34,155 bases of DNA from Sedimenticola sp. GTDB lineage: Bacteria; Pseudomonadota; Gammaproteobacteria; Chromatiales; Chromatiaceae. A model generated the notes under the pieces. It ran no database searches. It was not told the origin of the DNA and saw nothing but the letters and a program-made list of their open reading frames with translations. Where the stretch lies: assembly GCA_027024025.1 (NCBI GenBank), contig JALVTT010000043.1, positions 1-34,155 on the forward strand. Direction: 5' to 3'. The position numbers and the translations under genes were made by a program. Positions within the stretch are counted from its first letter, which is position 1. Each line of letters starts with the position of its first letter. Below, in pieces: positions 11,911-29,256 of this stretch.

Positions 11911-11984
11911 TATAGCAGAGCGACAGCAAGGCACAGCTCGAGCTGTGGCACTTTCAACCCGGTAAGCAACTGGAGAAAACATCA

Positions 11985-12443: not shown

Positions 12444-12480
12444 CCCCGACCCGGGTCCAAGAGACGAGAGGGAAAACACA

Positions 12481-13320: not shown

Positions 13321-13329
13321 TCCCCATCG

Positions 13330-13360
13330 CTCGCGCCGGTCCATGCGGGATCGGCGTGAG
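13330..13360 (+). terminator. Hairpin between flagellin 2 and maf
   Basis: CTCGCGCCG (13330-13338) pairs with CGGCGTGAG (13352-13360), nine pairs including one G-T, ten bases after the flagellin 2 stop. No U tract follows, so it may only partly terminate and allow lower readthrough into maf. Confidence 0.4.
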
Positions 13361-13405
13361 CATGGATAAGATGGCATACCAGGCAGCAATGCCGGACACC
13401 AAATA

Positions 13406-15910
13406 ATGAACACCAGCCGACTATTGAGTAACGAATTTGGTGACCGCTACCTGTATGAGGTCAACCGAAATACCTTTGCACGCATTGGCGCCAACAGCCA
13501 GTTTCAGCGCGCCTTCGGCGAATCCTTTACCACCCCGGATACCCTGCACATCATCGTCGGCACCGACTCCGGCCTGCTGACACGCTTCGTGCATGGACTG
13601 GATCGCCCCGAAGGCAGCAAATATCTGTTCATCGAACTACCCGACCTGATCCCAATAATCCGGCCACTGATCGAAAAGTTCGTGGATGACGAACATATCG
13701 TGCTGTCTACTCCCGAACAGTGGCAGACCGATCTGCAGCGTCTGAATGTCGCAGACTATGTTCATAACAACTCGTTACGGGTACATGCATCCCTGGGGGT
13801 TGCCGATGGTTTTTTGGAGGACTACCAAGCACTGAAAAACTCAGTGCAACAGACACTCGATGGCATCGTATGGTCGCTGCAACAACGCCTGGGACATCCG
13901 GTATTCATTGCCACCCAGATCCAAAACCTGGTCTATAACCGCACACCAGCCATTCGCCTGCGCGACAGCTTTGCCGGCAAGACCGCCGTGGTGCTCGGAG
14001 GCGGCCCTTCCCTGGACGAATTCCTGCCCTGGGTCTCCCGGCACCGGGAGCAACTATTAGTGATCGCGGTCTCACGCGTCAGCCGGCGCCTGGTTGAGGC
14101 CGGCATCTATCCACATATCGTGGTGACTGTTGATCCTAGCCAAATGAGCTTCGAGGTCAGCCGCGAGATGCTCACACTGCCCCCCGATACCCTACTGGTC
14201 AACGCCTACCATGCCTCGCCAAAACTACTGGGGCAATGGCCGGGACGTAGCGTGTATCTAGGTAAGCGCTATCCATGGAAAGACCGCAAGGAGGTAGAGA
14301 ACGCCGCCGCGGTCGGTCCAACCGTCACCAATGCCGCAATCGAGACCGCGGTACTGCTCGGTGTTCGTCATATCATTCTTGGGGGCGTCGACCTGTGCCA
14401 TGATCGGCACGGCTATACCCATGCCAAGGGCAGCGTCGAACACGAACTCGGCCCCCGGCCCGCTAGCCTTGACATCGAAATACCCACTAACGACGGTGGG
14501 ACCGCGACCACCACGCCCGACTTCTACAACGCAATGTTGAGTATACAAGGCCAAGCGCGTCAGGCGGCCGCCCTGGGCGTGGAAATACTTAACCCGGCTC
14601 CCGGGGCGGCCCATATGGAGGCCGTTCGTCATGTGGCAATGGACGCGCTTCCCCTGACCAGCTTAGAGCGGCCGGCTACGGAAATCATCGCCGAGCACCT
14701 CGGAAAAGAAACCTCTGCCGAACGGCTCGCCGACTATCAGAACTTGACGCAATCCCTGGCCCGCGTCAACGGACGTATCCGCGCTATGATCAAGCTGGCC
14801 GAGGACGCACTGGATTGCAACGCCAGACTGTTTGGTCGCAAGGGCAAGCCCGCCGACTTTCGTTACAAGAAACGCATGGACAAAATCGAACGCCAACTTG
14901 ATCGCAAATACAAGGATCTAGCTGGGCTGGTTAAGCTATTCAGCGCCCGCGCCTTTCTTCGCATGCCACCTTCTGACCGAGAGTGGAGCAACGAAGAACT
15001 CGAACAGGCTGGCATCACCTACTACACCGCCTACCGGGACAATGCCAGAAATCTACTCGCGCTGTTCGAGGCAGCCCAAGAATATGTGACCTTCGCCATC
15101 GCCGAAGAATCCGACCGACCCGACATGGCAGCACTGGCGAAACATTGGCTTGAGCATGACATACCCGGGCGGGCGCGTGTCTGGAGGCGGCTACATCCCG
15201 ATACCGATGAGCGCCTCGACCAACGTGCTCGAGCCGAACTGGACCGCCTGGACGCGGCATTCCAAACCCAGCTCCTGGAACAGGACACGCTACACCGGAA
15301 ACAGCTCGCGCAAAGCTTCGACCTGAGCGGCATCCGCGCGCGCCTACATCTGCTCCACACGCGCCAGGATCTGCAAGGCCTCGAGCGACTTCGGCGGCAG
15401 CTGACACCCCTGGACGGTCCTCAAGCCAAGGAGTTGGCGGTACTGGCCTCCGGCTATATCGCCTTGCTCAGGGACACCAGGGAGACGGCCTTTACCCAGT
15501 TCGCCCAACTCATCGATTTGGCACAGCAAAACATGGGCGAAGACGCGCCCAACCCCCGCTTGGAAGACGCCCTGTGCAATATGGCGACCATCGCATTGGA
15601 TCTAGGTCAGAACGAACAGGCACTGCTGATCCTAGAAACCCTCAACGAGCTCTCGCCCAATTACCTGCCGCAATTCGGCGAGCTGCTGCGCCTGACGGGC
15701 CACATCCCCGAGGCCGAGACGCTGTACAGCGAGCATCTGGAAAACCACCCGGACGACGCCGTGACCATGTTGGCATTGGGCCGGCTCTATCAGGAACAGG
15801 GCGCCCAGGAATCGGCACGCATGGCTTTTCAACATATACTAGCAAGAGATCCAGCCAACGAGGATGCCCGGACACTGCTCGGCCAAATGGAGTCTTCTTC
15901 GAGCCCATGA
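13406..15910 (+). CDS. maf: Motility accessory factor (Maf) nonulosonate glycosyltransferase
   Basis: Maf proteins transfer pseudaminic or legionaminic acid from the CMP-sugar to Ser/Thr of flagellin in the cytoplasm before export. The product has 834 residues. An N-terminal domain (about 1-180) precedes the MAF_flag10/DUF115 core. Its signatures are TAVVLGGGPSLDEFLPWV (about 193-210), VSRVSRRLVEAGIYPHIVVTVDP and HIILGGVDLCHDRHGYTHA. A long helical region is followed by TPR-like repeats (about 665-830, for example ALLILETLNELSPNYLPQFGEL), which may bind flagellin. The ribosome binding site is weak. The gene overlaps legB by four bases (ATGA) and lies directly behind flagellin 2. This places the sugar pathway and its transferase in one operon. 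Confidence 0.93.
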   Translation: MNTSRLLSNEFGDRYLYEVNRNTFARIGANSQFQRAFGESFTTPDTLHIIVGTDSGLLTRFVHGLDRPEGSKYLFIELPDLIPIIRPLIEKFVDDEHIVLSTPEQWQTDLQRLNVADYVHNNSLRVHASLGVADGFLEDYQALKNSVQQTLDGIVWSLQQRLGHPVFIATQIQNLVYNRTPAIRLRDSFAGKTAVVLGGGPSLDEFLPWVSRHREQLLVIAVSRVSRRLVEAGIYPHIVVTVDPSQMSFEVSREMLTLPPDTLLVNAYHASPKLLGQWPGRSVYLGKRYPWKDRKEVENAAAVGPTVTNAAIETAVLLGVRHIILGGVDLCHDRHGYTHAKGSVEHELGPRPASLDIEIPTNDGGTATTTPDFYNAMLSIQGQARQAAALGVEILNPAPGAAHMEAVRHVAMDALPLTSLERPATEIIAEHLGKETSAERLADYQNLTQSLARVNGRIRAMIKLAEDALDCNARLFGRKGKPADFRYKKRMDKIERQLDRKYKDLAGLVKLFSARAFLRMPPSDREWSNEELEQAGITYYTAYRDNARNLLALFEAAQEYVTFAIAEESDRPDMAALAKHWLEHDIPGRARVWRRLHPDTDERLDQRARAELDRLDAAFQTQLLEQDTLHRKQLAQSFDLSGIRARLHLLHTRQDLQGLERLRRQLTPLDGPQAKELAVLASGYIALLRDTRETAFTQFAQLIDLAQQNMGEDAPNPRLEDALCNMATIALDLGQNEQALLILETLNELSPNYLPQFGELLRLTGHIPEAETLYSEHLENHPDDAVTMLALGRLYQEQGAQESARMAFQHILARDPANEDARTLLGQMESSSSP

Positions 15911-16905
15911 AAAAAATACTCGTCACCGGCGCGGACGGCTTCATCGGCTCGCATCTCACCGAGGCGCTGGTGCGGCGCGGCCACGAGGTGCGCGCCTTCG
16001 TGTACTACAACAGCTTCGGCCATCGCGGCTGGCTAGACAGCAGCCCGCCCGAGATCCAGGACGCGCTGGACTTTTTCGCCGGCGACATCCGCGACCCGCA
16101 TGGCGTGCGCACCGCCATGCAGGGCTGCGACACCGTGCTGCACCTGGCCGCGCTGATCGGCATCCCCTATTCCTATCACTCGCCCGACGCCTATGTGGAC
16201 ACCAATGTGCGCGGCACCCTCAACGTGGTGCAGGCCGCGCGCGATCTGGACGTGGAAAAGGTGGTGCATACCTCCACCAGCGAGGTCTATGGCACGGCGC
16301 AATACGTGCCCATCGACGAGAAACATCCGTTGCAGGGCCAGTCGCCCTACTCGGCGACCAAGATCGGGGCCGACCAGATCGCGCTGTCCTTCTACCGCGC
16401 CTTCGACACTCCGGTCACCGTGGCCCGTCCCTTCAACACCTTCGGCCCGCGCCAGTCCGCGCGCGCCGTGATCCCGACCGTGATCACCCAGATCGCCAAC
16501 GGCGAGCACGCCCTCAAGCTGGGCGCGCTGCACCCGACCCGCGACTTCAACTATGTGAAGGACACGGTCGCGGGCTTCATCGCCATGGCCGAATCGGACC
16601 GGGTGCTGGGCGAGGAGGTCAACCTGGGCAGCAACTACGAGATCAGCATCGGCGACACGGTACGGCTGATCGCCGAGGTGATGGACGCCGAGATCACCAT
16701 CGAGACCGACGCGCAGCGCCTGCGCCCGGAAAAGAGCGAGGTCGAGCGACTCTGGGCCGACAACCGCAAGGCCCTGGAACTGCTCGACTGGGCCCCCGCG
16801 TACGGCAGCCGCGAGGGCCTGCGCCGCGCCCTGCGGGAGACCGTGGCCTGGTTCACCGAGCCCGCCAACCTCGGGCGTTACCGGCACGGCGTCTACAACA
16901 TCTGA
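15907..16905 (+). CDS. legB: NAD-dependent 4,6-dehydratase LegB
   Basis: LegB converts GDP-GlcNAc to the 4-keto-6-deoxy sugar, the first committed step of legionaminic acid synthesis. The product has 332 residues with the extended SDR signatures: nucleotide-binding TGADGFIGSH (7-16), LHLAALIGIPYSY, the TSTSEVYGTAQ serine region, the catalytic YSATK tetrad element, and RPFNTFGPRQSARAVIPT. The start at 15907 overlaps the maf stop. GC content is high, like the chromosome and unlike the module that follows legC. Related dehydratases acting on UDP-sugars look similar; the leg assignment rests on the neighbours legC, legI, legF and ptmE. Confidence 0.92.
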   Translation: MKKILVTGADGFIGSHLTEALVRRGHEVRAFVYYNSFGHRGWLDSSPPEIQDALDFFAGDIRDPHGVRTAMQGCDTVLHLAALIGIPYSYHSPDAYVDTNVRGTLNVVQAARDLDVEKVVHTSTSEVYGTAQYVPIDEKHPLQGQSPYSATKIGADQIALSFYRAFDTPVTVARPFNTFGPRQSARAVIPTVITQIANGEHALKLGALHPTRDFNYVKDTVAGFIAMAESDRVLGEEVNLGSNYEISIGDTVRLIAEVMDAEITIETDAQRLRPEKSEVERLWADNRKALELLDWAPAYGSREGLRRALRETVAWFTEPANLGRYRHGVYNI

Positions 16906-16911
16906 ATCGTC

Positions 16912-18141
16912 ATGGACAGCGCAGCCGAGAGCACAGCGGACGGAATCGCGGAGCGGATCGTGGAGATGCTGGACCGGGCGCTGCCGGGCGAGCGCCCGAT
17001 CGCCCTGCACGAACCCGCCTTCCAGGGCGGCGAGTGGGACCGGGTGCGCGACTGCCTGGACTCCGGCTGGGTCTCCTCGGTCGGCGGCCATGTGGACGGC
17101 TTCGAACAGGCCCTGGCGGCCTATACCGGCATCCCGCACGCCCTGGCCACGGTCAACGGCACCGCGGCCCTGCACAGCTGCCTGGTGCTGGCCGGGGTCC
17201 AGCCCGGGGACGAGGTCCTGCTGCCGGCGCTGACCTTCGTCGGCACCGCCAATCCGGTGGCCCATCTCGGCGCCACGCCGCATTTCGTCGACACCGACCG
17301 CGCCACCCTGGGCGTGGACCCGCTGGCCCTGGACGACTACCTCTCCGACATCGCCCGGCTGCGCGGGAACACCTGCTACAACCGCCACAGCGACCGCCCT
17401 CTCCGCGCCCTGGTGGCGGTGCACGTGCTGGGGCATATCGGCGACATGGACGCGCTGCTGGCGGTGCTCGAACGCTACCGCATCGGGCTGATCGAGGACG
17501 CGGCCGAGGCCCTGGGCTCCTGGCGCGAGGGCCGTCACGCGGGCGGCTGGGCGCGCCTCGCCGCCCTGAGCTTCAACGGCAACAAGATCATCACCACCGG
17601 CGGCGGCGGGGCCATCCTGACCCGCGATCCCGATCTGGCCCGGCAGGCGCGCCATCTGACCACCACGGCCAAGCGCCCCCATCCCTGGGCCTTCGAACAC
17701 GACCAGGTCGGCTACAACCACCGCATGCCCAATCTCAACGCCGCCCTGGGCGAGGCCCAGCTGGAAGGCATCGAGACCCTGCTGCGGGCCAAGCGCGCGC
17801 TGGCCGAACGCTACCAGGCCCTGTTCGACGGGCAGGCCGGTGTCGAACTGTTCCGCGAGCCCGCGGGCTGCCGCAGCAACCACTGGCTCAACCTGCTGCT
17901 GCTCGACGATCCGGCGCAACGCGATCCGCTGCTGCGGCGCGCGCACGAGCAGGGCCTGCAGCTGCGTCCCTTCTGGACCCCGCTGAACCGCCTGCCCATG
18001 TATCGCGACTGCCCGGCCATGCCGCTGCCGGCGACATCCACACTATTCGAGCGCGGGGTCTGCCTACCAAGCTCCGCCACACTTGAACTGCAACAGGACT
18101 TGGCACATGAAAAATATCCTGATCATTGCCCCTCATCCTGA
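16912..18141 (+). CDS. legC: LegC-family PLP aminotransferase
   Basis: LegC transfers an amino group to C4 of the keto-sugar made by LegB. The product has 409 residues and belongs to the DegT/DnrJ/EryC1/StrS fold. It shows SGWVSSVGGHVDGFEQALAAYTG, VNGTAALHSCLVLAGV, LIEDAAEALGS and the PLP lysine in SFNGNKIITTGGGGA (K225). It lies six bases after legB. The C-terminus is odd: after LPSSATL the final 18 residues use lower-GC DNA and overlap the next gene by 35 bases, suggesting that the native 3' end was replaced when the downstream module was inserted. The catalytic core is intact. Confidence 0.92.
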   Translation: MDSAAESTADGIAERIVEMLDRALPGERPIALHEPAFQGGEWDRVRDCLDSGWVSSVGGHVDGFEQALAAYTGIPHALATVNGTAALHSCLVLAGVQPGDEVLLPALTFVGTANPVAHLGATPHFVDTDRATLGVDPLALDDYLSDIARLRGNTCYNRHSDRPLRALVAVHVLGHIGDMDALLAVLERYRIGLIEDAAEALGSWREGRHAGGWARLAALSFNGNKIITTGGGGAILTRDPDLARQARHLTTTAKRPHPWAFEHDQVGYNHRMPNLNAALGEAQLEGIETLLRAKRALAERYQALFDGQAGVELFREPAGCRSNHWLNLLLLDDPAQRDPLLRRAHEQGLQLRPFWTPLNRLPMYRDCPAMPLPATSTLFERGVCLPSSATLELQQDLAHEKYPDHCPSS

Positions 18142-18775
18142 CGACGAACTACTGGGCTGTGGTGGAACCTTACTGCGCCATCTTGCGGCGGGCAATCAGG
18201 TACATTGGCTGATTGTCAGCAAGATGCACTCTCGAGCTGGCTACAGCCGGGAACAAATCAAAGCCCAAGAACGCCTTATCCAGCGAGTAAGCAATGCCAT
18301 CGGCTTCAGTTCCGTACGGCAGCTAAACTTTCCAACAACCCAGCTCGACACAGTGCCCTTGTCAGAGATTGCCTCATCCATAGGCCAGATGACACGCGAC
18401 AGCCAAGCCGACACCCTTTATCTGCCCAGCCCTAATGATATCCATACCGACCATTCGGTGGTATTCAACGCCGCCAAAGGATGCGCCAAATGGTTTCGTT
18501 ATCCAGAAGTACAGCGGGTCTATGCCTATGAAACGTTGTCGGAAACAGATTTTTCACTGAGCACTGATGGACCTGCCATTCGCATCAACCACTATGTGGA
18601 TATCAGCGAACAATTGCCGCGCAAGCTAGAACTGCTGGATCTCTATCGGGCTGAATGCGACGAATTTCCTTTCCCTCGCAGCGAAAAGGCCGTTGAGGCC
18701 CTAGCCCGACTCCGCGGCGCAGCCTGCGGCTGCAGGGCCGCCGAGGCCTTCCAACTATTAAAGGAAGTCGTATAG
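18107..18775 (+). CDS. PIG-L family N-deacetylase
   Basis: PIG-L (LmbE-like) enzymes are zinc-dependent deacetylases of N-acetylated sugars. The product has 222 residues and starts MKNILIIAPHPDDELLGCGG, containing the AHPDDE-type zinc and catalytic motif (here PHPDDE). A second metal ligand motif SPNDIHTDHSVVF appears near residue 113. I chose the ATG at 18107; an in-frame start at 18083 adds eight residues without a better ribosome site. GC content drops to about half here. It overlaps the legC end and is convergent with the NeuC-like gene six bases away. The substrate is unknown; deacetylation of an acetamido group on the nonulosonate or a precursor is the simplest idea from context. Confidence 0.88.
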   Translation: MKNILIIAPHPDDELLGCGGTLLRHLAAGNQVHWLIVSKMHSRAGYSREQIKAQERLIQRVSNAIGFSSVRQLNFPTTQLDTVPLSEIASSIGQMTRDSQADTLYLPSPNDIHTDHSVVFNAAKGCAKWFRYPEVQRVYAYETLSETDFSLSTDGPAIRINHYVDISEQLPRKLELLDLYRAECDEFPFPRSEKAVEALARLRGAACGCRAAEAFQLLKEVV

Positions 18776-18781
18776 CGGTCT

Positions 18782-19972
18782 TCAATAGGTCAGTTTCTTG
18801 GCCAACAGACGAGGCTTGGGAGGCAGGTTCTTCAGGATCTGCAAGGACCGCTGCGCCATGTATCCATCACCATATAGGGACTTGCCGATCTGCAGACCGT
18901 CACGATAGGCCGGTTCAAGGGCACGCCGCAAAGCAGCCATGACAGGGGCAGGCGCGGCATCCACGAACTGAACATTAGGGCCAGCCAGACGGCCCCGCTG
19001 ACGCTCTCCAACATTGATGACCGGAAGGCCAAGGTATTCCGCCTCATGTAGGCCCAATGATGAATTACCTAACAAACAGGCCGCATATTTCAACAATCCA
19101 GCAAAGACATCCCGCTCAAGATTCCGGTACACATGAATCCCGGGCCTATCTTGATATTCCCGGATCGCATCGACCACCCCTTGCGATCCTGGATCACTGT
19201 TGGGCGCACCCACGAAAACCGGCAACCCAAGCTGCTGACATTGATCAAGAATCACCCTTACCTCATCCCCACTCTGACGTGGTTTACATCCAAGTGGATG
19301 ATGAATCAACACGAAATAAGGCCCCTTTACATCATCACCCAATAGGTCTGCTAATGCACCCCTCGATAAGCCAGGCCTAATCCGAAGGCGATCAACCCCT
19401 CCGCTGCCCACGGTAAAGACTCGCCAAGACTCCTCGCCAAGCTTAAGAACTCGCTCACTATGGGCTTCAGCCATGGTCAAATGCACATGACTCAGCTTGG
19501 TGGTGGCATGCCTCACCTCTTCATCAACATTACCGCCGACAGGATGTGTATGATCGCCACCAGCCAAATGGACCACCGGCACCCCGACATATGTACCGGC
19601 AAGCGCGCCAATGACCGATTCCTCGCGGTCACCAAGCACGATCAAGAGATCAGGATCCTCTCGTTCCAAAACCGATGGCAAAGACGTGAGCAAGATTCCC
19701 GCCGACCGCGCCTTGCTTTGTGGAGTATCTGAAAAAAGGAGGTTTTCAATCCGCTCGACAATACGAAAACCATCTTTCTCAATAGCACGGACCGAATAAT
19801 CATGTAGGGGCGACAGATGCGCCCCGCAGACGATCACGCCAAGATCGAAGTCGTCATCTTGCTCCAGCGCCTTCATCAAGGGAAACAGCAAATCATATTC
19901 AGAACGTATGCCAGTCAGCACCAAAGTCTTAATACAGCCGCCACATGCATTCAACAGGACATCATTTTTCAT
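18782..19972 (-). CDS. legG: Hydrolysing UDP/GDP-GlcNAc 2-epimerase (NeuC/LegG family)
   Basis: This family removes the nucleotide and inverts C2 to give the free hexose consumed by LegI. The product has 396 residues. Family signatures include LVLTGIRSEYDLLFPLMKAL, VLGDREESVIGALAGTYVGVPVVHLAGGD, GNVDEEVRHATTKLSHVHL and GNSSLGLHEAEYLGLPVINVGERQ. The first 14 residues (KNDVLLNACGGCI) look like an extension relative to typical family starts. It is on the opposite strand to legB, legC, legF and legI, in DNA near 50% GC. It overlaps the upstream methyltransferase by 11 bases. The reaction choice (legionaminic versus sialic precursor) follows from the presence of legB, legC and ptmE. Confidence 0.9.
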   Translation of the reverse strand: MKNDVLLNACGGCIKTLVLTGIRSEYDLLFPLMKALEQDDDFDLGVIVCGAHLSPLHDYSVRAIEKDGFRIVERIENLLFSDTPQSKARSAGILLTSLPSVLEREDPDLLIVLGDREESVIGALAGTYVGVPVVHLAGGDHTHPVGGNVDEEVRHATTKLSHVHLTMAEAHSERVLKLGEESWRVFTVGSGGVDRLRIRPGLSRGALADLLGDDVKGPYFVLIHHPLGCKPRQSGDEVRVILDQCQQLGLPVFVGAPNSDPGSQGVVDAIREYQDRPGIHVYRNLERDVFAGLLKYAACLLGNSSLGLHEAEYLGLPVINVGERQRGRLAGPNVQFVDAAPAPVMAALRRALEPAYRDGLQIGKSLYGDGYMAQRSLQILKNLPPKPRLLAKKLTY

Positions 19973-20609
19973 AGTGAACTATCCAGTGACGCGAACAAAT
20001 CCCCAAAAACTCATGTGAAAACGACCCAATCTCACATTCTGAACAATCGAAGTAACTGGATAATTCCCGTTCCTCCAACACCCTCAACACAGCCCCTTCC
20101 TGGCCTTGGCAACCGATTCGAAAAACACCCTGTCCCAATACCTCCGCGCCATCTTGTCTGCTGTCTCCAGGCGCGGTAATCGCAGCAATAAACAGCCCAC
20201 CAGGGCGCAATACTCGATGCAACTCCGCCAACGCCTTTCTGAAGCCTGCGTCATCGTTGTAACAAAGCACTTGCCATGCTGTGATCGCGTCAAAGCTCGC
20301 ATCTTTGAACGGCAGCTTCCCATCCATGCATATATGTAAATCCGCATCCAAGCCGGCACTGTAGAGGCGTTCCGAGGTCACTGCCAGTGCGCTATGACTG
20401 ACCTCCACCCCTGTCATACTGAATCCTCTACGGCAAAGATGCATCAAATTCTCTCCACTTCCGAAGCCGTAATCCAAAACTCTTGGATGACGCCGCACAT
20501 CCAACAATCGATACGTTACTCTCACAAACATATCTGAGGGATAATCCAGACGATGTCCTCGACTATAGAGCGATTCCCATACCTCATGATTCACGGTTGC
20601 TTCGAACAT
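19962..20609 (-). CDS. Class I SAM-dependent methyltransferase
   Basis: The 215-residue product has the Rossmann methyltransferase core: motif I VLDYGFGSGENLMHLCRRG, an acidic residue at the end of strand 2 (TGVEVS), LPFKDASFDAITAWQVLCYN and LHRVLRPGGLFIAAIT. I chose ATG 20609, which is preceded by GGAGGGGG; an in-frame upstream start at 20651 lies deeper in the WbqC-like gene. It overlaps WbqC-like by 26 bases and the NeuC-like gene by 11 bases, so the four minus-strand genes form a tightly coupled operon. The target is unknown. O- or N-methylation of the flagellar sugar is a reasonable inference, since methylated nonulosonates are known from flagellins. Confidence 0.85.
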   Translation of the reverse strand: MFEATVNHEVWESLYSRGHRLDYPSDMFVRVTYRLLDVRRHPRVLDYGFGSGENLMHLCRRGFSMTGVEVSHSALAVTSERLYSAGLDADLHICMDGKLPFKDASFDAITAWQVLCYNDDAGFRKALAELHRVLRPGGLFIAAITAPGDSRQDGAEVLGQGVFRIGCQGQEGAVLRVLEERELSSYFDCSECEIGSFSHEFLGICSRHWIVHYEK

Positions 20610-21285
20610 TGCCCCCTCCAAGATAAGCGATTGCCTGTTCAGGCCCTGCATGCATTAACATGTCGATCATCGACAAGCCAGGAATGAAATCATCGTAAGG
20701 CTGCTCATAGACTGGCGGCTGCGACGCCATATACTCGATCCGTATTCCGGCCTGTTCAAAGCTTTCCGGTTCCAGATACGCACTGGCCCCACGCCCGCTG
20801 AGATAGATATCCGCGCCGAGATGCCGGCAGATATTGAGTACACGCTCTGACTTTTGCCCAAGCACACCCAGCGTCGATAGCCGTACTATTGGGGTCGAGA
20901 TCTCCAGCGCCTGAAAAAAAAATTTGAGGAATCGCTCATTGGCTTGACCTAGAGTGCCATATCCGTCCTGGTATAAAGCAGCCAAACCATCCGCGTATTT
21001 AGACCAATATTTAGATCTCCCATAAGCAGCTTGGATTGATTTCCAGTGTTTTACACGCCAGCGCGTGCCCGCGCAGACCTTCTCACTGATAGAATCCGCG
21101 AGTGAACCGCTTACTGGGATAGTCAACCAAAACGCACCCTGACGGTTACGTATTCGGTTACGGTTTTGTACACCATTTTTCTGGTACTGAACATCGTCCA
21201 TCAGGACGAAACAATCGGCCTGCGCAATCTTTCGGAAATACGGAGGCCACGGCAAATATTGACTCTGATGGATGGCCACCTTCAT
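20584..21285 (-). CDS. WbqC-family protein
   Basis: WbqC-like proteins occur in surface polysaccharide and flagellar sugar clusters and have no settled reaction. The 233-residue product starts MKVAIHQSQYLPWPPYFRKI and contains FVLMDDVQYQKNGVQNRNRI and WLTIPVS. A C-terminal block includes LGADIYLSGRGASAYLEPE, FEQAGIRIEY and LSMIDMLMHAGPE. All are hallmarks of the family. No signal or membrane segment is visible. It overlaps the aminotransferase upstream by four bases and the methyltransferase downstream by 26 bases. Coupling to an aminotransferase suggests that it acts on the amino group introduced by that enzyme, but this is inference. Confidence 0.9.
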   Translation of the reverse strand: MKVAIHQSQYLPWPPYFRKIAQADCFVLMDDVQYQKNGVQNRNRIRNRQGAFWLTIPVSGSLADSISEKVCAGTRWRVKHWKSIQAAYGRSKYWSKYADGLAALYQDGYGTLGQANERFLKFFFQALEISTPIVRLSTLGVLGQKSERVLNICRHLGADIYLSGRGASAYLEPESFEQAGIRIEYMASQPPVYEQPYDDFIPGLSMIDMLMHAGPEQAIAYLGGGNVRSNRES

Positions 21286-22334
21286 GCACTCACCTCCTGA
21301 TAACAGCTGAACACACGCTGCAATTGCCGCTCGTCCAGGCCCTCATGCAAAGGCAGAGACAGCAGCTGATGCCGCCATCGCTCGGCATTTGGGTATTCGC
21401 CCGGAATGTTGAACACCTCGTGCAGTAGGCTCGACCCCAATGGCCAGGCCATCACCCCTCTTTCTCGCATGGCACTAGCAAACGCACGCGAATCGCGTCC
21501 GGGTTCTAGTATCAACTGATATCGAAAAGGTACTACCGGATGCATTCTATCGGGCTCACCCAATAGCTGATCATACCGCTCCATCCATTTATGCCGCAGT
21601 CTCAGGGTTTGCGGATACCGCCTCAGTTGTTCATTGAGCATTGCGCATTGAAAATCGGAAACCGGCGCATGCAGCCGGAATGGCAACCCCTCGATACACT
21701 GTACCGCCTCATCCGCTTCCAACAAGTGCTGCATCCGCGCATGTAAAACGGGATCGTCGGTTACCACGGCACCAGCGTAACCGATTGTCTGGAGTTTGGT
21801 TGGGGAGAATGAAAATACCGAGAGTTGAGCTGCACTATCACATAATGGGCGCTGCGCCTGGGCACAATCCTCGATCACCCGATATCCTGAGTCGATCAAT
21901 GGCGCTAGATCCCTGACCAAGCCGAACATATGCGGCACAATTACATGACGTATCCGATCTGGAGATGGCAAATCGGCAGCTAGCAAGGGTATGTCCGCAG
22001 CCACATCCAATACCACGGGCTCAGCTCCCACGCTTTTCACTGCATGAAACACACTTGGGCAGGTTACCGTGGGCACAATCACCGGGACTCCCGCTTGGAC
22101 CCCCGAGGCCAGCAATGCACACTGCAGCGCCTGAAAGCCACTGCCCACCAAGTGAGCGTACATACGTCCCGAGAAGTCGGCCAAGGCCGCCTCTGCCGCC
22201 AGTTTGTATTCGCCATGCGACAGACAATTCTGGCGCAATGCCAAGACCGCAGCGCCGATTACCGATTCGTCAAGCACCGGGTAGCCATGAGGCACATCAG
22301 GTTCGTTCGTTTCCTTTTCTAATCGCGCCTTCAA
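21282..22334 (-). CDS. DegT/DnrJ/EryC1/StrS sugar aminotransferase
   Basis: PLP-dependent aminotransferase of nucleotide sugars, 350 residues. It shows LRQNCLSHGEYKLAAEAALADFSG, VGSGFQALQCALLASGVQAG, VIEDCAQAQ and the PLP lysine in SFSPTKLQTIGYAG (K180). It is distinct in sequence from LegC and belongs to a different subgroup. The annotated start is TTG at 22334, with no strong ribosome site. An in-frame GTG at 22295 is an alternative that keeps the conserved HGYPVLDE start. A short upstream frame ends in TGA overlapping the TTG. It is the first gene of the inverted four-gene operon. Its substrate is unknown and must differ from the LegC step or act in a parallel sugar branch. Confidence 0.88.
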   Translation of the reverse strand: MKARLEKETNEPDVPHGYPVLDESVIGAAVLALRQNCLSHGEYKLAAEAALADFSGRMYAHLVGSGFQALQCALLASGVQAGVPVIVPTVTCPSVFHAVKSVGAEPVVLDVAADIPLLAADLPSPDRIRHVIVPHMFGLVRDLAPLIDSGYRVIEDCAQAQRPLCDSAAQLSVFSFSPTKLQTIGYAGAVVTDDPVLHARMQHLLEADEAVQCIEGLPFRLHAPVSDFQCAMLNEQLRRYPQTLRLRHKWMERYDQLLGEPDRMHPVVPFRYQLILEPGRDSRAFASAMRERGVMAWPLGSSLLHEVFNIPGEYPNAERWRHQLLSLPLHEGLDERQLQRVFSCYQEVSA

Positions 22335-22584
22335 TGCGACACCACTGGATCGTTCATGAGTTGAGAAATTGACATCACTGGATAAGAAGCAGATTCCATG
22401 CCACCCGCATCTCTGTATCTCCCCAACACGCGACTATTCAGTCAATGACTCGTAACCCTTTGTATTGACGGCAAGACGAACACCTTGGATAGCCGACACA
22501 TCATTCACTATAGCGTGATGGGAATTAATGGCCCATTCCTTGCTTATCAGTAGACAGACCCGATAACCATGAACAAAGACCGTC

Positions 22585-23559
22585 ATGAATACCGTTTTAC
22601 CATCCGTACCTCTGATCCATATCGGTCTACCCAAAACCGCCACTACTTTCTTGCAGACCCTATGGCTCAATGATCCCGGGATCTGTCTGTTGAAGAACGG
22701 CCTGCTACCCCTGATCCACGCGGCGCGCCAGGACGGGTTGAAGGACACGCCGGTTCCACGGACCCGGCACCCATCCGCGTTCGAATTCGATACGCCACCA
22801 CAAGCCGGGCAAAAACTGCTGGCCAGCAATGAGGCGCTCTCGACCGCCTACATCAACCGGCGGGCCAGCGCCTCGCAGATCCAGCGCTTTCAGCAGCACG
22901 CGGCCGTGGCCATGAAGGCCCTGATCCCGAAATCCAAGGTTTTGATCGTGGTAAGAGAGCCCGCCGCATGGATCCTGTCGATCTACAACCAAGCCGTGAA
23001 GGAAGGGGGCAGCGACACATTTCGGCAGTTCCTCAATCGCGAACGCGACTATGTTCTGCAATCGCTCAATATGCGCGACCTGTTTGTCACCTGGCGGCAG
23101 CATTACGGGAACGGCAACATCCTAATCCTGCCCCTGGAACTGTTGCGCGACCGTCTCGACACCTTCCATGCGGAACTGAGCCGCTTCAGCGGCATACCCA
23201 GATCACCAGAGATCACGCCCGAACAGACCATCAACCCGTCTCTCAAGCACGGCCATCTGGATGTGATGCGCCAATTCAACAAATGGGTCGAATTGTTCCG
23301 GCGGCACGGCCGGCAGCAGATGCAAACACCGCTGGAGCTAGAGCAGATGCTCCGGCATATCCGCTTTGCTACCCGTTACATGCTCGAATCACCGAGCCCG
23401 GATCTGGAACGCCGCCTACGCCTGTACGAACGGGGCATGCGCCTACAACGCCCGGACAAAACTGACATCCCGCGCGAGCTGCTTAAAGCCATCCGCTCCA
23501 ATAACAAAAAGCAACTGAAAAAGGACACCTTCTTTGGATACCGCGACCTCTACATCTGA
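22585..23559 (+). CDS. P-loop sulfotransferase family protein
   Basis: The 324-residue product carries the two PAPS-binding signatures of sulfotransferases: an N-terminal 5'-phosphosulfate loop HIGLPKTATTFLQ (12-24) and a 3'-phosphate binding segment VLIVVREPAAWILSIYNQ with the Arg and Ser in the expected spacing. The C-terminal region is basic and helical. It is divergent from the aminotransferase across a 250-base gap in which I find no convincing promoter, and it overlaps legF by 26 bases. The 5' end is lower in GC than the rest. Sulfation of a flagellar or surface glycan is the context-based guess; the acceptor is not known. Confidence 0.8.
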   Translation: MNTVLPSVPLIHIGLPKTATTFLQTLWLNDPGICLLKNGLLPLIHAARQDGLKDTPVPRTRHPSAFEFDTPPQAGQKLLASNEALSTAYINRRASASQIQRFQQHAAVAMKALIPKSKVLIVVREPAAWILSIYNQAVKEGGSDTFRQFLNRERDYVLQSLNMRDLFVTWRQHYGNGNILILPLELLRDRLDTFHAELSRFSGIPRSPEITPEQTINPSLKHGHLDVMRQFNKWVELFRRHGRQQMQTPLELEQMLRHIRFATRYMLESPSPDLERRLRLYERGMRLQRPDKTDIPRELLKAIRSNNKKQLKKDTFFGYRDLYI

Positions 23560-24274
23560 TACCAGGACACCGCGCATCCTGGGTCTGATTGCGGCACGCG
23601 GCGGCAGCAAACGCCTGCCGCGCAAGAATATCCGCCACCTAGGAGGCAAACCGTTGATTGTCTGGACCATCGAAGCCGCGCGCGCCAGCAGCCGCATCGA
23701 TGACCTGATCGTTTCGACAGATGATCCGGAGATCGCCGAGATCAGCCATCGCCACGGCGCCGATATCCCCTTTATGCGTCCTTCCGAGCTGGCCAGCCAT
23801 ACCGCCAGTAGTACGGCTGTCATCCTGCACGCCCTCGATACGCTGGGCGCCCGGGGACAATACTACGATTATCTGGTGGAATTGCAGCCCACCTCGCCGC
23901 TGCGCGGCGCGGCGGACATCGACGGCGCGATCAATCTGGCTCTGGAACGCAAGGCCGACGCCGTGATATCGGTCTGCAAAACCGACCATCCGCCCGAGTG
24001 GAGCAACACCCTGCCGGCCGACCGCTCCATGAAGGACTTCTTCCGGCCCGGCGTAAAAGAGACCCGATCCCAGGATCTCCCGGTCAGTTACCGTCTCAAT
24101 GGCGCCATCTATGTCTTCAACTGCCGGCGGCTTCTGGCACAACGCAATCTGGATATGGACGACAACGCCTACGCCTACATCATGCCGCGCGAACGCTCGA
24201 TCGACATCGACACCCGGCTGGATCTGCGCATCGCCGAGGCCATCCTGGCGCACGGCGGGGAGGCGCGCCCATGA
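23534..24274 (+). CDS. legF: CMP-nonulosonate cytidylyltransferase (LegF/NeuA family)
   Basis: LegF activates legionaminic acid with CTP to give the CMP-sugar used by Maf. The product has 246 residues. It shows the nucleotide-binding motif LIAARGGSKRLPRKNIRHLGGKP (about 18-40 in total), LIVSTDDPEIAEIS, LVELQPTSPLRGAADID, and a C-terminal GAIYVFNCRRLL and SIDIDTRLDLRIAEAIL. The start appears to be TTG at 23534, preceded by AAGGAC at seven bases, because no ATG or GTG occurs before the conserved core. It overlaps the sulfotransferase end and shares ATGA with legI. Distinguishing Leg from sialic or pseudaminic acid synthetase rests on the neighbouring legB, legC and ptmE. Confidence 0.9.
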   Translation: MDTATSTSDTRTPRILGLIAARGGSKRLPRKNIRHLGGKPLIVWTIEAARASSRIDDLIVSTDDPEIAEISHRHGADIPFMRPSELASHTASSTAVILHALDTLGARGQYYDYLVELQPTSPLRGAADIDGAINLALERKADAVISVCKTDHPPEWSNTLPADRSMKDFFRPGVKETRSQDLPVSYRLNGAIYVFNCRRLLAQRNLDMDDNAYAYIMPRERSIDIDTRLDLRIAEAILAHGGEARP

Positions 24275-25347
24275 GCCGGCCGGTGTATCTCATCGCCGAG
24301 GCCGGGGTGAACCACAACGGAGACCCGGAACGCGCCCTGGCCATGGTGGACGCCGCGGCCGAGGCCGGCGCCGACGCGGTCAAGTTCCAGACCTTCGACC
24401 CGGCGGCCCTGGTCACCCGCGACGCGCCCCGGGCCGAGTACCAGCGGCGCAACGACGGCGACCACGGCGGCCAGCTCGCAATGCTGCGCGGCCTGGCCCT
24501 GCCCCCGGAGACCCACCGGCGGCTGGCGGCGCGCTGCGCCGAGCGCGGCATCGATTTTCTCTCCTCGCCCTTCGATCCCGACAGCGCCCGCTTCCTGATC
24601 GAGGAAATGGCGCTGCCGCGCATCAAGCTCGGCTCGGGCGAGCTGACCAACGGGCCGCTGCTGTGGCAGCTCGGCCGGACCGGCCGCAGGCTGATCCTGT
24701 CCACCGGCATGGCCGGACTGGACGAGATCGGCGAGACCCTGGGCCTGCTGGCGGCGGCCTTTCTGGGCCACGCCTCGCCGCCGCCGCGCAGCGCGCTCGG
24801 GGCGCTCTGGCAACAGCCCGAGGCCCACGCCCTGCTGCGCGAGCGGGTCGCGCTGCTGCACTGCACCACCGAGTACCCCTGTCCCCTGGACCAGGTCAAT
24901 CTGCGCGCCATGGACACCCTGCGCGAGACCTTCGGCCTGGAGACCGGATACTCCGATCACACCCCGGGCATCGAGGTCTCGCTGCTCGCGGCGGCACGCG
25001 GGGCGCGAATCATCGAGAAACACTTCACCCTGGACCGCGGCCTGCCCGGACCCGACCACGCCGCCTCGATCGAGCCGGATGCGCTGAAGGCACTGGCCGA
25101 GGGCCTGCGGCGGGTGGCGACGGTGCTGGGATCGCCCGAGAAACGCCTCGCGCCCGTGGAAGAAGGCAACCGCGCGGTGGCGCGCAAGAGCCTGGTGGCG
25201 CTGCGGCCGATCGCGCGCGGCGAGCCCTTCACCGCGGACAATCTGGGCTGCAAGCGCCCCGGCACAGGACGCTCGCCCATGGACTACTGGGCCCTGCTGG
25301 GCCAGCCGGCGGAACGGGCCTACCAGGCCGACGAGGTGATCGAATGA
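24271..25347 (+). CDS. legI: Nonulosonic acid synthase (LegI/NeuB family)
   Basis: LegI condenses the 2,4-diacetamido-6-deoxymannose-type hexose with phosphoenolpyruvate. The product has 358 residues. The TIM-barrel part includes YLIAEAGVNHNGDPERAL, AVKFQTFDP, IDFLSSPFD, IKLGSGELTN, LILSTGMA, LLHCTTEYPCP and GYSDHTPGIEVSLLAAARGARIIEKHFTLD. The C-terminal antifreeze-like SAF domain is RKSLVALRPIARGEPFTADN. The start at 24271 (ATGA with the legF stop) gives the canonical N-terminus. GC content is high, as in legB and legC, supporting common ancestry of these parts of the operon. Confidence 0.95.
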   Translation: MSRPVYLIAEAGVNHNGDPERALAMVDAAAEAGADAVKFQTFDPAALVTRDAPRAEYQRRNDGDHGGQLAMLRGLALPPETHRRLAARCAERGIDFLSSPFDPDSARFLIEEMALPRIKLGSGELTNGPLLWQLGRTGRRLILSTGMAGLDEIGETLGLLAAAFLGHASPPPRSALGALWQQPEAHALLRERVALLHCTTEYPCPLDQVNLRAMDTLRETFGLETGYSDHTPGIEVSLLAAARGARIIEKHFTLDRGLPGPDHAASIEPDALKALAEGLRRVATVLGSPEKRLAPVEEGNRAVARKSLVALRPIARGEPFTADNLGCKRPGTGRSPMDYWALLGQPAERAYQADEVIE

Positions 25348-25985
25348 GCCGGCCGGTGATCATTCTCGGCGGCGGCGGGCACGCGCGCGTGCTGGCCGAG
25401 CTGCTGGTCGGCGGCGGCACCCCGGTGCTGGGCTATACCGCGCCGGAGGACGGCGGCGCGCTGGCCCCCGGGGTGGGGTGGCTGGGCGACGACCGGCGAC
25501 TGGCCGACTATCCCCCGGAGCGGGGCGGCCTGGTCAACGGCATCGGCTCGGTCGGCGATACCGCGGCCCGCCGGCGGCTGTTCGATCGACTGCGCGGGCA
25601 GGGCTACACCTTTCCGCTGCTGTGTCACCCCTCGGCCATGCGCTCGCCCAGCGCCGAGTGCGGCCAGGGCTGCCAGCTGATGGCCGGCGCCATCCTCCAG
25701 GCCGGCGCCCGCCTGGGCGACAACGTGCTGCTCAACAGCCGCGCCCTGGTCGAGCACGGCTGCCGCATCGGCCGCCATACCCATATCGCCAGCGGGGCCG
25801 TGGTCTGCGGCGACTGCGAGATCGGCGAAGGCTGTCACATCGGCGCCGGGGCGGTGCTGATACAGGGCCTTCGGGTTGGGAATGGCGCGATTATTGCTGC
25901 GGGTGCGGTAGTCACGCAAAACGTCAAGCCGATGACGCTGGTAGCCGGCGTCCCGGCCGAGGTCAAACGCCAATGGACGCAGTAA
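25344..25985 (+). CDS. legH: Sugar O/N-acetyltransferase (LegH/NeuD/PglD family)
   Basis: This family acetylates the 4-amino group of the nucleotide sugar made by LegC. The product has 213 residues. An N-terminal Rossmann-like part begins PVIILGGGGHARVLAELL, and the left-handed beta-helix has hexapeptide repeats (GCQLMAGAILQAGARLGDNV, IGRHTHIASGAVVCGDCEIG, VGNGAIIAAGAVVTQNV). It ends MTLVAGVPAEVKRQW, the usual family ending. It overlaps legI by four bases and ptmE by 13 bases. NeuD-type O-acetyltransferases share this fold, so either N-acetylation in the pathway or O-acetylation of the product is possible; the first is favoured because a complete pathway needs it. Confidence 0.9.
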   Translation: MSRPVIILGGGGHARVLAELLVGGGTPVLGYTAPEDGGALAPGVGWLGDDRRLADYPPERGGLVNGIGSVGDTAARRRLFDRLRGQGYTFPLLCHPSAMRSPSAECGQGCQLMAGAILQAGARLGDNVLLNSRALVEHGCRIGRHTHIASGAVVCGDCEIGEGCHIGAGAVLIQGLRVGNGAIIAAGAVVTQNVKPMTLVAGVPAEVKRQWTQ

Positions 25986-27040
25986 GCCCTTCCGAGCGCT
26001 GGAAAGAGATCGCCATCCCGCCCACCGCCACGGTGCGCGAGGCCCTGGAGACCATCGACCGCGGGGCGCGCCAGATCGCCCTGGTGGTGGCCGACGCCTG
26101 CCATCTCGAAGGCACCGTGACCGATGGCGACATCCGCCGCGCCCTGCTGCGCGGGCGCGACATGCAGACCCCGGTCTCCGAGGTCATGAACCCCAATCCG
26201 GTGACCGGCCTGCTGGAGGAGGACAACCGGATCTGGCAGCGCACCATGCAGCGCCATTCGCTGCGCCACCTGCCCATACTGGACACCCGCGGCTGTGTGA
26301 TCGACCTGGTGGAATACCAGATCCCCAGCGAGCCCAGCCGCAGCACCCCGGTGGTCATCATGGCCGGCGGCCTGGGCACCCGCCTGCGCCCGCTGACCGA
26401 GGAGATCCCCAAGCCGCTGATCCCGGTCGGCCCCAAGCCGGTGCTCGAGACCATCATCGAGAACTTCGCCTCGCAGGGCTTCGAGAACCTCTTTCTGTGC
26501 CTCAACTACAAGGGCCAGATGATCCGCGACTACTTCGGCGACGGCGCGCATCTGGGGGTGGGCATACGCTATATCACCGAGGACCGCCGCCTGGGCACCG
26601 CGGGCGCGCTCAGCCTGCTGCCGGAGCCGCCGGACGAGCCCATCATCGTGATGAACGGCGATCTGCTGACCAAGGTCGATTTCGTGCGCCTGCTGGAATT
26701 CCACAACCGGCAGGGCTTCGTCGCCACCATGGCGATGCGCGAATACAGCCACCAGGTGCCCTATGGCGTGCTGCAGGTCGGCGAGGGCTACCGCATCGAG
26801 CAGCTGACCGAGAAGCCGGTGCAGCGGCACTATGTCAACGCCGGCATCTATGTGCTCTCGCCCGAGGCCCTGGCCCTGGTGCCGGAGCAGAAGTTCTACG
26901 ACATGCCCAGCCTGTTCCAGCGCCTGATGGGCATGCGGCGGCCGGTGGGCAGCTTTCCGCTGCGTGACTACTGGATCGACATCGGGCACATCGAGGATCT
27001 GGAGCGCGCCTCCCTGGAATTCGCCGAGATATTTGGTTAA
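25973..27040 (+). CDS. ptmE: CBS-domain glucosamine-1-phosphate guanylyltransferase (PtmE-like)
   Basis: PtmE makes GDP-glucosamine, the entry to the GDP-linked legionaminic acid pathway of Campylobacter. The product has 355 residues. An N-terminal pair of CBS motifs (about 12-115, including VTDGDIRRALLRGRD, VSEVMNPNPVT and LRHLPILDTRG) precedes a nucleotidyltransferase domain. That domain carries PVVIMAGGLGTRLRPLTEEIPKP (about 123-145), GTAGALSLL, IIVMNGDLLTKVDF, QLTEKPV and YWIDIGHIEDLERA. CBS plus NTP_transferase order is the PtmE layout; generic sugar nucleotidyltransferases lack the CBS pair. It overlaps legH and ends three bases from the convergent Nudix gene. Confidence 0.9.
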   Translation: MDAVSPSERWKEIAIPPTATVREALETIDRGARQIALVVADACHLEGTVTDGDIRRALLRGRDMQTPVSEVMNPNPVTGLLEEDNRIWQRTMQRHSLRHLPILDTRGCVIDLVEYQIPSEPSRSTPVVIMAGGLGTRLRPLTEEIPKPLIPVGPKPVLETIIENFASQGFENLFLCLNYKGQMIRDYFGDGAHLGVGIRYITEDRRLGTAGALSLLPEPPDEPIIVMNGDLLTKVDFVRLLEFHNRQGFVATMAMREYSHQVPYGVLQVGEGYRIEQLTEKPVQRHYVNAGIYVLSPEALALVPEQKFYDMPSLFQRLMGMRRPVGSFPLRDYWIDIGHIEDLERASLEFAEIFG

Positions 27041-27043
27041 TTG

Positions 27044-27628
27044 TCAGGCATCTTGGAAGGAGACCACCCTGTAGCCACGCGGCTGGTCCGGGTCGCGCAC
27101 GATATCGGCCATGCGCACCGGAAAACGGCCCGCCCGCCGGTCCTCGAAATAGCGCCGCAGGACCAGCTCGACGGTGGCGAAGGCCAGCCGCCCCCAGGGC
27201 AGATCGGACTCACGGAACAGGGCGACCTCCAGGCTCTCCTCGCCGGGCGAGAAGTCCAGGTCCAGCAGACGCGCGCGGAACAGCATATAGACCTGGTCGA
27301 TATGCGGCAGATTGACGGTCAGATACAGCCCCTGGATCTCGACCCGCGCGTTGGCCTCCTCCAGGGTCTCGCGCGCCGCGCCGGCGTAGGTGGTCTCGCC
27401 GTTTTCCATGAAGCCGGCGGGCACCGTCCACAGCCCGCGCCGGGGCTCGATGGCGCGCCGGCACAACAGCACCTGGTCCTCCCAGGCGGGGATGCAGCCG
27501 GTCACGATCTTCGGGTTCTGGTAATGCACCACCCGGCAGGCGTCGCAGATGTGGCGCTCGCGGTTGTCCCCCTCGGGGACGCCCAGGCGCAGCGGGCCAC
27601 CGCAGTGTGTGCAGAATCTGGCTTCCAT
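27044..27628 (-). CDS. Zinc-ribbon Nudix hydrolase
   Basis: Nudix enzymes hydrolyse nucleoside diphosphates linked to other groups. The 194-residue product has an N-terminal zinc ribbon (CTHCGG at 5-10, CDAC near 28-31) and a Nudix domain. The Nudix box is visible as GFMENGETTYAGAARETLEEANA (GX5EX7REXXEE pattern). The C-terminal part is YFEDRRAGRFPVRMADIVRD. The architecture is like small NudC-related proteins, but the C-terminal SQPWPFP motif of NADH pyrophosphatase is absent, so the substrate is open. I chose ATG 27628 because it starts right before the zinc ribbon; the longer in-frame start at 27703 adds 25 unlike residues. Confidence 0.88.
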   Translation of the reverse strand: MEARFCTHCGGPLRLGVPEGDNRERHICDACRVVHYQNPKIVTGCIPAWEDQVLLCRRAIEPRRGLWTVPAGFMENGETTYAGAARETLEEANARVEIQGLYLTVNLPHIDQVYMLFRARLLDLDFSPGEESLEVALFRESDLPWGRLAFATVELVLRRYFEDRRAGRFPVRMADIVRDPDQPRGYRVVSFQDA

Positions 27629-27737
27629 CCGGGCATCATACTGCCCTCCCCCCGCGGCGCAAATCGGAATGAAGCGGCGCGGGAAAAAAGGTAGCATGGG
27701 CACTCAGTGTCCACCTGGCCGGGAACCTTCCGGGGCT

Positions 27738-29252: not shown

Positions 29253-29256
29253 GCCC

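Follow-up and report, generated by a model that had tools for sequence, protein, structure and literature searches.

A probable exchangeable N-acyl-tailoring cassette in the flagellin legionaminic-acid operon of a Sedimenticola species

The stretch of DNA analysed here (the window) comprises bases 1–34,155 of a 46,391-base contig (C43; JALVTT010000043.1) of Sedimenticola sp., the genome of which (GCA_027024025.1) amounts to 2.46 Mb in 200 contigs. It contains a flagellin glycosylation locus with the genes fliD, flagellin, fliW, flagellin, maf, legB and legC, then a block of low GC content, and then legI, legH, a ptmE-type gene, a nudix gene and ppx. The low-GC block lies inside the operon for legionaminic acid (Leg), and is the subject of this work. 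In what follows, G-numbers denote the compared genomes (G000 is the window's own) and L-numbers the loci or contigs retrieved in searches. The features from maf to the ptmE-type gene are as follows.

13406–15910, plus strand: Maf-type flagellin glycosyltransferase (MptE-like plus TPR), backbone; PF01973, 5e-39; a homologue precedes legB in six relatives
15874–16905, plus strand: legB, 4,6-dehydratase, backbone, start only approximate; TIGR04180, 527 bits (cut-off 475)
16912–18141, plus strand: legC, aminotransferase, backbone; TIGR04181, 485 bits (cut-off 420)
17998–18105, no strand: left composition boundary, best placed at 18,034 or 18,079; GC segmentation
18107–18775, plus strand: PIG-L family N-deacetylase, cassette; PF02585, 9e-22; HPDD at residue 10, HTDH at residue 113
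18782–19972, minus strand: neuC-type hydrolysing 2-epimerase, cassette; TIGR03568, 332 bits (cut-off 235.9)
about 19962–20609, minus strand: S-adenosylmethionine (SAM)-dependent methyltransferase (MT), cassette, reading frame extendable to 20,651; PF13649, 5e-19
20584–21285, minus strand: WbqC-like protein, proposed amide ligase, cassette; PF08889, 9e-71, 238.6 bits (gathering score 21.3)
21282–22334, minus strand: DegT-type pyridoxal phosphate-dependent aminotransferase, cassette; PF01041, 3e-37; the lysine in SFSPTK and the EDCAQ motif are kept
22335–22584, no strand: divergent intergenic region between degT and sulf, 0.47 GC, expected to drive both
22585–23559, plus strand: sulfotransferase (sulf), intermediate GC; PF00685, 1e-7
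23534–24274, plus strand: legF-type CMP-nonulosonate synthetase, intermediate GC; PF02348; the PseF model is the best match, below its cut-off
24155–24254, no strand: right, stronger composition boundary; GC segmentation
24271–25347, plus strand: legI, nonulosonate synthase, backbone; TIGR03569 (NeuB model), 426.5 bits (cut-off 399.65)
25344–25985, plus strand: legH-type hexapeptide acetyltransferase, backbone; PF00132, 4e-27
25985–27040, plus strand: ptmE-type nucleotidyltransferase with CBS domain, backbone; PF00483, 2e-42, and PF00571, 4e-10

No internal stop interrupts the seven frames that run from PIG-L through legF. The genes neuC, MT, wbqC and degT overlap end to end on the minus strand, opposite to the leg genes. 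A first-pass annotation, made from the sequence alone, had described this minus-strand set correctly. It had also stated that the set runs opposite to everything around it, which is true inside the leg operon but not across the window, where the minus strand also carries ffh, fliD, one flagellin gene and the nudix gene. The four genes it named are indeed in the block; the plus-strand PIG-L gene, which it left unnamed, lies inside as well.

Composition steps were placed by maximum-likelihood GC segmentation, with 3-lnL ranges for the edges. They fell at 18,079 (range 17,998–18,105), 22,698 and 24,213 (range 24,155–24,254), delimiting segments with GC contents of 0.699 (15,926–18,078), 0.524 (18,079–22,697), 0.603 (22,698–24,212) and 0.702 (24,213–32,769). 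The 0.52-GC part contains the PIG-L gene and the four minus-strand genes; the 0.60-GC part contains most of sulf plus legF. The low-GC module proposed in the first-pass annotation is therefore real, GC dropping from 0.70 to 0.52 at 18,079. Its edges, given there as 18,060 and 22,650, lie close to 18,079 and 22,698, but the larger step on the right is that at 24,213, at the end of legF. Likewise, the claim that the low-GC stretch ends at the sulfotransferase gene holds for the 0.52-GC part, but not for sulf and legF, which are intermediate. GC at third codon positions (GC3) was 0.87–0.93 for ten backbone genes of the window (0.87–0.92 for legB, legC, legI, legH and ptmE), 0.50–0.58 for PIG-L, neuC, MT, wbqC and degT, 0.73 for sulf and 0.76 for legF. 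The codon usage of the five cassette genes was also unlike that of the host backbone; the Jensen-Shannon distance to the ten backbone genes was 0.20, and that to the corresponding cassette of D100SM.bin.11, a metagenome-assembled gammaproteobacterium of about 50% GC, 0.037. A second dip in GC was seen at 8,848–15,925 (fliD, both flagellin genes, fliW and maf), with a GC content of 0.583 and GC3 of 0.67–0.81. In six backbone-sharing relatives, too, the GC of the homologous flagellar genes mostly does not exceed that of the leg genes, so this dip looks to be shared.

The left step falls within the end of legC. The window LegC extends 20 residues beyond the conserved CLPSSA ending, into low-GC DNA, overlapping the start of the PIG-L gene; in eight relatives, LegC ends 3–9 residues beyond the LPSSA motif. 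An overrun of this kind at the composition step is what a junction within the conserved 3′ end of legC would produce, although the additional residues may instead stem from the end of the donor's LegC. No tRNA target was found in the window, and no repeats at the two cassette edges.

When 112 genomes were searched for LegC (E ≤ 1e-60), 15 had a match, among them that of the window. Of the eight genomes of the genus, five had one. The arrangement Maf-legB-legC is common to seven loci (window, G002, G003, G004, G006, G057 and G061), and what follows legC differs among them. In G002, G003 and G057, an ordinary, co-directional legG separates legC from legF. In G006, legF comes directly after legC (in L037 the legC stop is at 8506 and the legF match starts at 8512), with an ordinary legG, a formyltransferase gene, a PIG-L gene and legI downstream; in G061, legC is followed by legI. 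The slot between legC and legF, occupied in three relatives by legG, holds in the window the PIG-L gene, the minus-strand genes neuC, MT, wbqC and degT, and sulf, and the same set occupies the same place in the congener G004. There, legC is followed by PIG-L and by neuC on the minus strand, and a second contig carries MT, wbqC, degT, sulf, legF and legI in the order and orientation of the window. The six cassette proteins are 48–68% identical between the two genomes; among the loci compared, the sulfotransferase has a close homologue only in G004 (55%), with weak 26% matches in L068, from Alteromonas marina, and in L069. The assembly of G004 breaks inside its cassette, between MT and neuC, at an IS4-family element (L048 5415–6155; L036 8447–8678). 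One contig has a DDE transposase after MT (NF033592, 189 bits, cut-off 115), the other a transposase-type N-terminus before neuC (DUF4372, below its cut-off); a 15-base end, CACTAGTGTCCGGAA, is common to both contigs and places the element between these two genes. We infer that the two contigs join across it.

Related cassettes were found in three gammaproteobacterial loci of 0.50–0.51 GC, namely L053 (D96SM.bin.23), L054 (D100SM.bin.11) and L070 (a Chromatiales metagenome-assembled genome). In these, degT-wbqC-MT-neuC is divergent from legF-legI, and PIG-L is encoded elsewhere in the genome; D96SM.bin.23 and D100SM.bin.11 also have Maf-legB-legC adjoining flagellin genes. In Brevibacillus (L055), the same cassette genes are co-directional with legB-legC and legI-legH. 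A gene for an amine-oxidase-like flavoprotein of about 450 residues is present at the cassette in L053, L054, L055, L062, L064, L068, L069 and L070. It adjoins degT everywhere except in L062; in the window and G004, degT is present but the flavoprotein gene is not. With flagellar flanks and differing gene sets in one slot among relatives, the locus is a flagellar glycosylation island with cassette exchange. The first-pass annotation had proposed modular exchange, expecting legC to be followed directly by legF in some strains and by other cassettes in others. The slot contents of the six relatives support this: G006 has the direct order, the others carry legG, the cassette or legI after legC, and both gene order and GC differ.

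The exchanged set includes a core enzyme of the pathway. The cassette neuC is the only NeuC-family match in the window's genome (E ≤ 1e-20), so the hydrolysing epimerase step sits on foreign-looking DNA; in G004, the cassette NeuC is accompanied by one weak match below the family cut-off. The claim that an essential legG is carried on such DNA stands in this respect, but the gene is not an ordinary legG. Its product is 31–36% identical to the LegG of G002, G003, G006 and G057, and belongs to a clade that is mostly PIG-L-associated. Its active-site loop reads GGDHTHPVGGNVD (motif GGNVD, with a three-residue insert), compared with GG[DE]xxEGAFD in G002, G003 and G057 and GGEATEGLID in G006. More than one NeuC-type gene per locus was seen in G132 (L145, where one is an ordinary LegG by score) and in the Helicobacter loci L103, L110 and L113.

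The neighbourhoods of NeuC relatives were surveyed in the best 80 of 91 loci found via two peptide patterns, a sample that leans to the NeuC clade of the window. A PIG-L gene lies within 7 kb of neuC in 62 of the 80 loci (within 1.6 kb in 55), and 59 of these 62 also have a candidate acylating partner: ATP-grasp without WbqC in 25, WbqC without ATP-grasp in 21, a GNAT protein in 12 and both WbqC and ATP-grasp in one. Several ATP-grasp matches were weak (lowest, 71 bits), and the one tested was PylC-like. GNAT genes were counted without a distance limit, one of the 12 (L128) lying 7 kb from neuC on the other strand, and the two tested were Acetyltransf_9. Two of the three PIG-L loci without a partner (L084 and L120) have less than 1.7 kb of sequence upstream of neuC. 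Among the 18 loci without PIG-L within 7 kb, six have WbqC or ATP-grasp (L053, L054, L070, L083, L096 and L114) and 12 have neither. WbqC and ATP-grasp tend to exclude each other (p = 4e-6 for the 62 loci and 2e-5 for all 80, in statistics that ignore relatedness). The NeuC loop is of the form G[N/D]xD in all 61 of the 62 PIG-L loci in which it could be parsed, and GAID/GAMD (four), GCPD/GCAD (six) or GNPD (two) in the 12 loci without PIG-L, WbqC or ATP-grasp. In six Magnetococcales loci (L056, L058, L060, L061, L066 and L067) with a GCPD/GCAD loop and no PIG-L nearby, neuC, a relative of that in the window, has a gene of the SapC family about 1 kb away (PF07277, by Pfam in the one case so tested and by our own hidden Markov model, HMM, in the other five).

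Unrelated N-acylating enzymes thus swap, mostly one per locus, beside a deacetylase, and in the simplest view PIG-L would free an amine and the partner would re-acylate it. PIG-L enzymes of known function act on the 2-acetamido groups of GlcNAc-type sugars. Because of this, and because LegH, which acts on the 4-amine, is encoded outside the cassette, the freed amine is probably the future N-5 of legionaminic acid. PIG-L proteins carry the motifs HPDD and HxDH, both present in the window protein. Its best NCBIfam model was that of BshB1 (TIGR04001), at 40 bits and under the cut-off of 182.5, so it is not a BshB1; solved deacetylases, and solved sugar aminotransferases in the case of DegT, were remote matches only.

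The candidate ligase is the WbqC-like protein, which matched Pfam 'WbqC-like' only and no NCBIfam model. Its start, HQPQYLPW, had led to the guess of a HUP-type amide ligase before the structure was modelled. In an AlphaFold2 model built with 23 sequences (mean predicted local distance difference test score, 93.5), the top PDB match by Foldseek was BshC (4wbd; E = 6e-4, probability 1.00), the sole match below 0.001 among 807 at E ≤ 10. VIA-align superposed 222 of the 233 residues on BshC (Z = 14.6, root-mean-square deviation, rmsd, 3.2), which suggests a shared HUP-type fold; the next matches were class I lysyl-tRNA synthetase (12.4) and glutamyl-tRNA synthetases (about 9). The BshC family model TIGR03998 had no match in the window's genome, and the best hit of a WbqC profile among PDB sequences had an E-value of 0.081. 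Searches of the open-licence literature by title found no functional study of the WbqC family, and a search of that literature, preprints not covered, for a link between legionaminic acid and PIG-L found a single co-mention, within a reference and a table.

The resulting proposal is as follows. LegB and LegC would produce the GDP-4-amino sugar, and LegH would acetylate the 4-amine as usual. PIG-L would then remove the 2-N-acetyl group, and WbqC, if a HUP-fold enzyme like BshC, would use ATP to join an amino acid or another carboxylic acid to the freed amine. The methyltransferase may methylate the new acyl group, and DegT may supply or modify the acyl donor. The cassette NeuC would act on this substrate with its changed 2-N-acyl group, and the joint transfer of the epimerase and tailoring genes would thereby be explained. 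The last steps would fall to LegI and LegF, yielding a CMP-legionaminic acid that bears an unusual substituent at N-5 and is possibly sulfated; Maf would then place the sugar on flagellin.

Several known systems resemble parts of this scheme. PtmE, besides the Leg enzymes proper, belongs to the Leg pathway of Campylobacter jejuni. In that pathway, the Leg enzymes are LegB, LegC, LegH, LegG, LegI and LegF (PMC13317340). By family or domain, the window offers an equivalent for every step, beside flagellins and Maf, and LegB, LegC and the NeuC-type 2-epimerase (TIGR03568) score above curated cut-offs. The window differs in that LegG is replaced by a NeuC with another active-site-loop motif, and in the addition of PIG-L, WbqC, DegT, methyltransferase and sulfotransferase genes. 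Flagellar glycosylation islands or hypervariable regions are described in Clostridium (PMC13317340). These similarly hold exchangeable sugar genes within a conserved flagellar neighbourhood, but the exchange in the window is internal to the pathway operon, where it affects the legC-legF slot and includes a core enzyme. For C. botulinum, two papers describe flagellin carrying an N-methyl-glutamyl legionaminic acid, the position of the substituent being named differently in them, as Leg5Ac7NMeGlu or Leg5GluNMe7Ac (PMC2674064, PMC13317340). This comparison is one of glycans; the product proposed for the cassette is similar, a Leg in which one amine bears an N-methylated amino acid, and N-methyl-glutamyl Leg is the sort of compound to be expected of a deacetylase, a ligase and an N-methyltransferase acting together. 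The closest analogy for the enzymes themselves is the synthesis of bacillithiol. There, the PIG-L enzyme BshB frees an amine of a glucosamine-type sugar, to which BshC then attaches cysteine. In N-methyl-bacillithiol synthesis, BshB and BshC are followed by the N-methyltransferase NmbA, which acts on the cysteine nitrogen (PMC12719100). The cassette encodes a matching trio, namely a PIG-L deacetylase, a putative ligase of HUP fold and a SAM-dependent methyltransferase, but the window WbqC has 233 residues compared with 528 for Brevibacillus BshC, and lacks the coiled-coil domain of the latter. In Shewanella oneidensis, the flagellin carries a putative nonulosonic acid with a methylatable moiety, and the modification operon includes an ATP-grasp gene (PMC3765264).

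A number of results weigh against this functional scheme. The function of the cassette is predicted from sequence, neighbourhood and modelled fold. The HMM seeds for the neighbourhood survey were drawn from the same loci, which are not independent. The acylating enzymes are not all mutually exclusive, since L059 and L122 encode both a formyltransferase and WbqC, and L113 both a formyltransferase and ATP-grasp. DegT is absent from L057 and L059, and the flavoprotein found beside degT elsewhere is missing from the window and G004, so the role given to DegT is a guess. The Foldseek superposition of WbqC on BshC was loose (template-modelling score 0.47, rmsd 9.1), and hhalign gave a probability of homology between the two sequences of 0.2%, i.e. 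undetectable; WbqC is therefore likened to BshC by fold and gene partnership, not as a member of the family, and a shared fold shows no function. Among 11 relatives with a WbqC, six lack a legC match (E ≤ 1e-60); the protein is therefore not specific to the Leg pathway and must have other roles too. G006, which has PIG-L together with an ordinary LegG (GLID), is an exception to the loop rule, G132 holds both kinds of NeuC, and the G[N/D]xD loop may be merely a clade marker.

With these points taken into account, we regard the stretch as probably an exchangeable N-acyl-tailoring cassette of the flagellin legionaminic-acid operon, and deacetylation by PIG-L with re-acylation of a Leg precursor, as predicted from the sequence, as rather likely too. 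Whether the ligase is WbqC, for which the modelled fold is the guide, we consider evenly balanced. The broader proposal is a tentative one that we hold to be slightly more doubtful than that: PF08889 would be a family of BshC-like ATP-dependent amide ligases, PIG-L, WbqC and MT would act together in the manner of bacillithiol synthesis, WbqC, ATP-grasp and GNAT proteins would be alternates, and the NeuC clade would be co-swapped between distant bacteria. Alternatively, the cassette might make or tailor a second sugar, with PIG-L and WbqC acting outside the Leg pathway. The occurrence in G132 of a PIG-L-side NeuC and an ordinary LegG on one contig, the two or more NeuC matches of the three Helicobacter loci and the WbqC carriers without legC would agree with this, but the window's genome has no other NeuC, and in clusters of the L055 type legB, legC, legI, legH, a ptmE-type gene and legF surround a single NeuC-PIG-L pair; we find a second sugar unlikely.

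The origin of the window copy was addressed with trees. In the legI tree the window groups with the congener G003 (89/87), and its nearest relatives are G003, G057 and G002, all without the cassette; the nearest rows in the legC tree are G002, G057 and G003. The legF tree leans to the group of about 50% GC, not strongly (83/77). The five cassette proteins, when joined, form a 100/100 clade of the window, G004 and the three gammaproteobacteria of about 50% GC. The legC tree, however, does not separate the window from D96SM and D100SM, all lying in one 100/100 clade. The sisterhood of the window and G004 cassettes is weak (86/89; the alternatives have p-values of 0.22 and 0.10 in the approximately unbiased test), and mapping of a breakpoint by sliding identity along legF was uninformative. 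No NeuC closer than that of G004 (68%) was found in 210 genomes of the family, in which G132, at 43%, was the only other match at E ≤ 1e-85; none was found either in 369 genomes drawn from the class or among the best 80 loci of 91 (top identity, 66%). Searches for a donor with close identity, including one by gene order covering the 210 family genomes, were also negative. Any genome of about 50% GC would match the D100SM-like codon usage, which is no pointer to one donor. The flagellar genes of the window are themselves between host and cassette in codon usage (0.077 from the backbone, 0.054 from the cassette), and the intermediate composition of sulf and legF means that import was perhaps stepwise. 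The trees support an exchange only in part, and it is composition and slot contents that carry this reading; together they make cassette exchange in the legC-legF slot likely.

Two other explanations concern how the four minus-strand genes and the low GC arose. One is that the cassette is old and vertically inherited in the genus, its low GC reflecting drift or relaxed selection in this strain. The window and G004 indeed share gene order and a sulfotransferase without other close homologues among the loci compared, their cassettes are weakly sisters, and the divergence between these (0.91 changes per column) is not above that of legC (about 1.2, summed from the tree). The same five genes, however, have a GC3 of 0.78–0.87 in G004, where the cassette is at the high GC of its host and its codon usage is 0.045 from the backbone genes of the window, compared with 0.50–0.58 in the window, with a composition step at either edge and a GC3 of 0.91 in the neighbouring genes, and the cassette NeuC occurs in only two of the eight genomes of the genus. 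Purely vertical descent is improbable; a shared older arrangement followed by later re-import fits both sets of facts. The other is that an in-place inversion flipped four genes of an originally co-directional operon, as the first-pass annotation had implied. The co-directional order of the same genes in Brevibacillus would suit it, but G004 has the same orientation as the window, in L053, L054 and L070 the four genes are likewise divergent from legF-legI, and no inverted repeats surround the minus-strand block. The orientation is thus a property of the cassette, and inversion in place is very improbable. An even slighter chance attaches to a chimera of assembly or binning, with the low-GC stretch coming from another organism. 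The genome is a 200-contig assembly, but the left edge lies inside legC, both edges are within the operon and far from the contig ends, the cassette genes complete the pathway, and their order is repeated in G004.

We conclude that the cassette had its orientation before the import, and that the copy in G004 has had a longer stay in a high-GC genome. Most likely, the window copy was recently imported from a lower-GC relative of these lineages that did not appear in our searches; recombination between the conserved ends of legC and legF/legI would have brought the cassette in from such a bacterium, carrying its orientation along.

Regarding expression, a promoter and terminator scan found one sigma-70-like site compared with 4.3 expected, and three terminators compared with 5.5 expected; the degT/sulf intergenic region showed no conservation with G004. 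A sigma-54-like site, TGGCCCATTCCTTGCT, was seen at 22529–22544, upstream of sulf-legF, as a single match among several patterns tried. After ppx, at 29257–30534, the window encodes a 425-residue protein the C-terminal half of which looks methyltransferase-like by eye; it had no NCBIfam match at E ≤ 1e-20.

These observations give the WbqC family a testable function. They also suggest a rule by which PIG-L, an acylating enzyme and a matching NeuC, when found together, would predict non-acetyl legionaminic acids from genomes. Finally, a core pathway enzyme appears to be exchanged along with tailoring genes, the products of which may change its substrate, and variation in flagellar sugars can thus spread as ready-made units.

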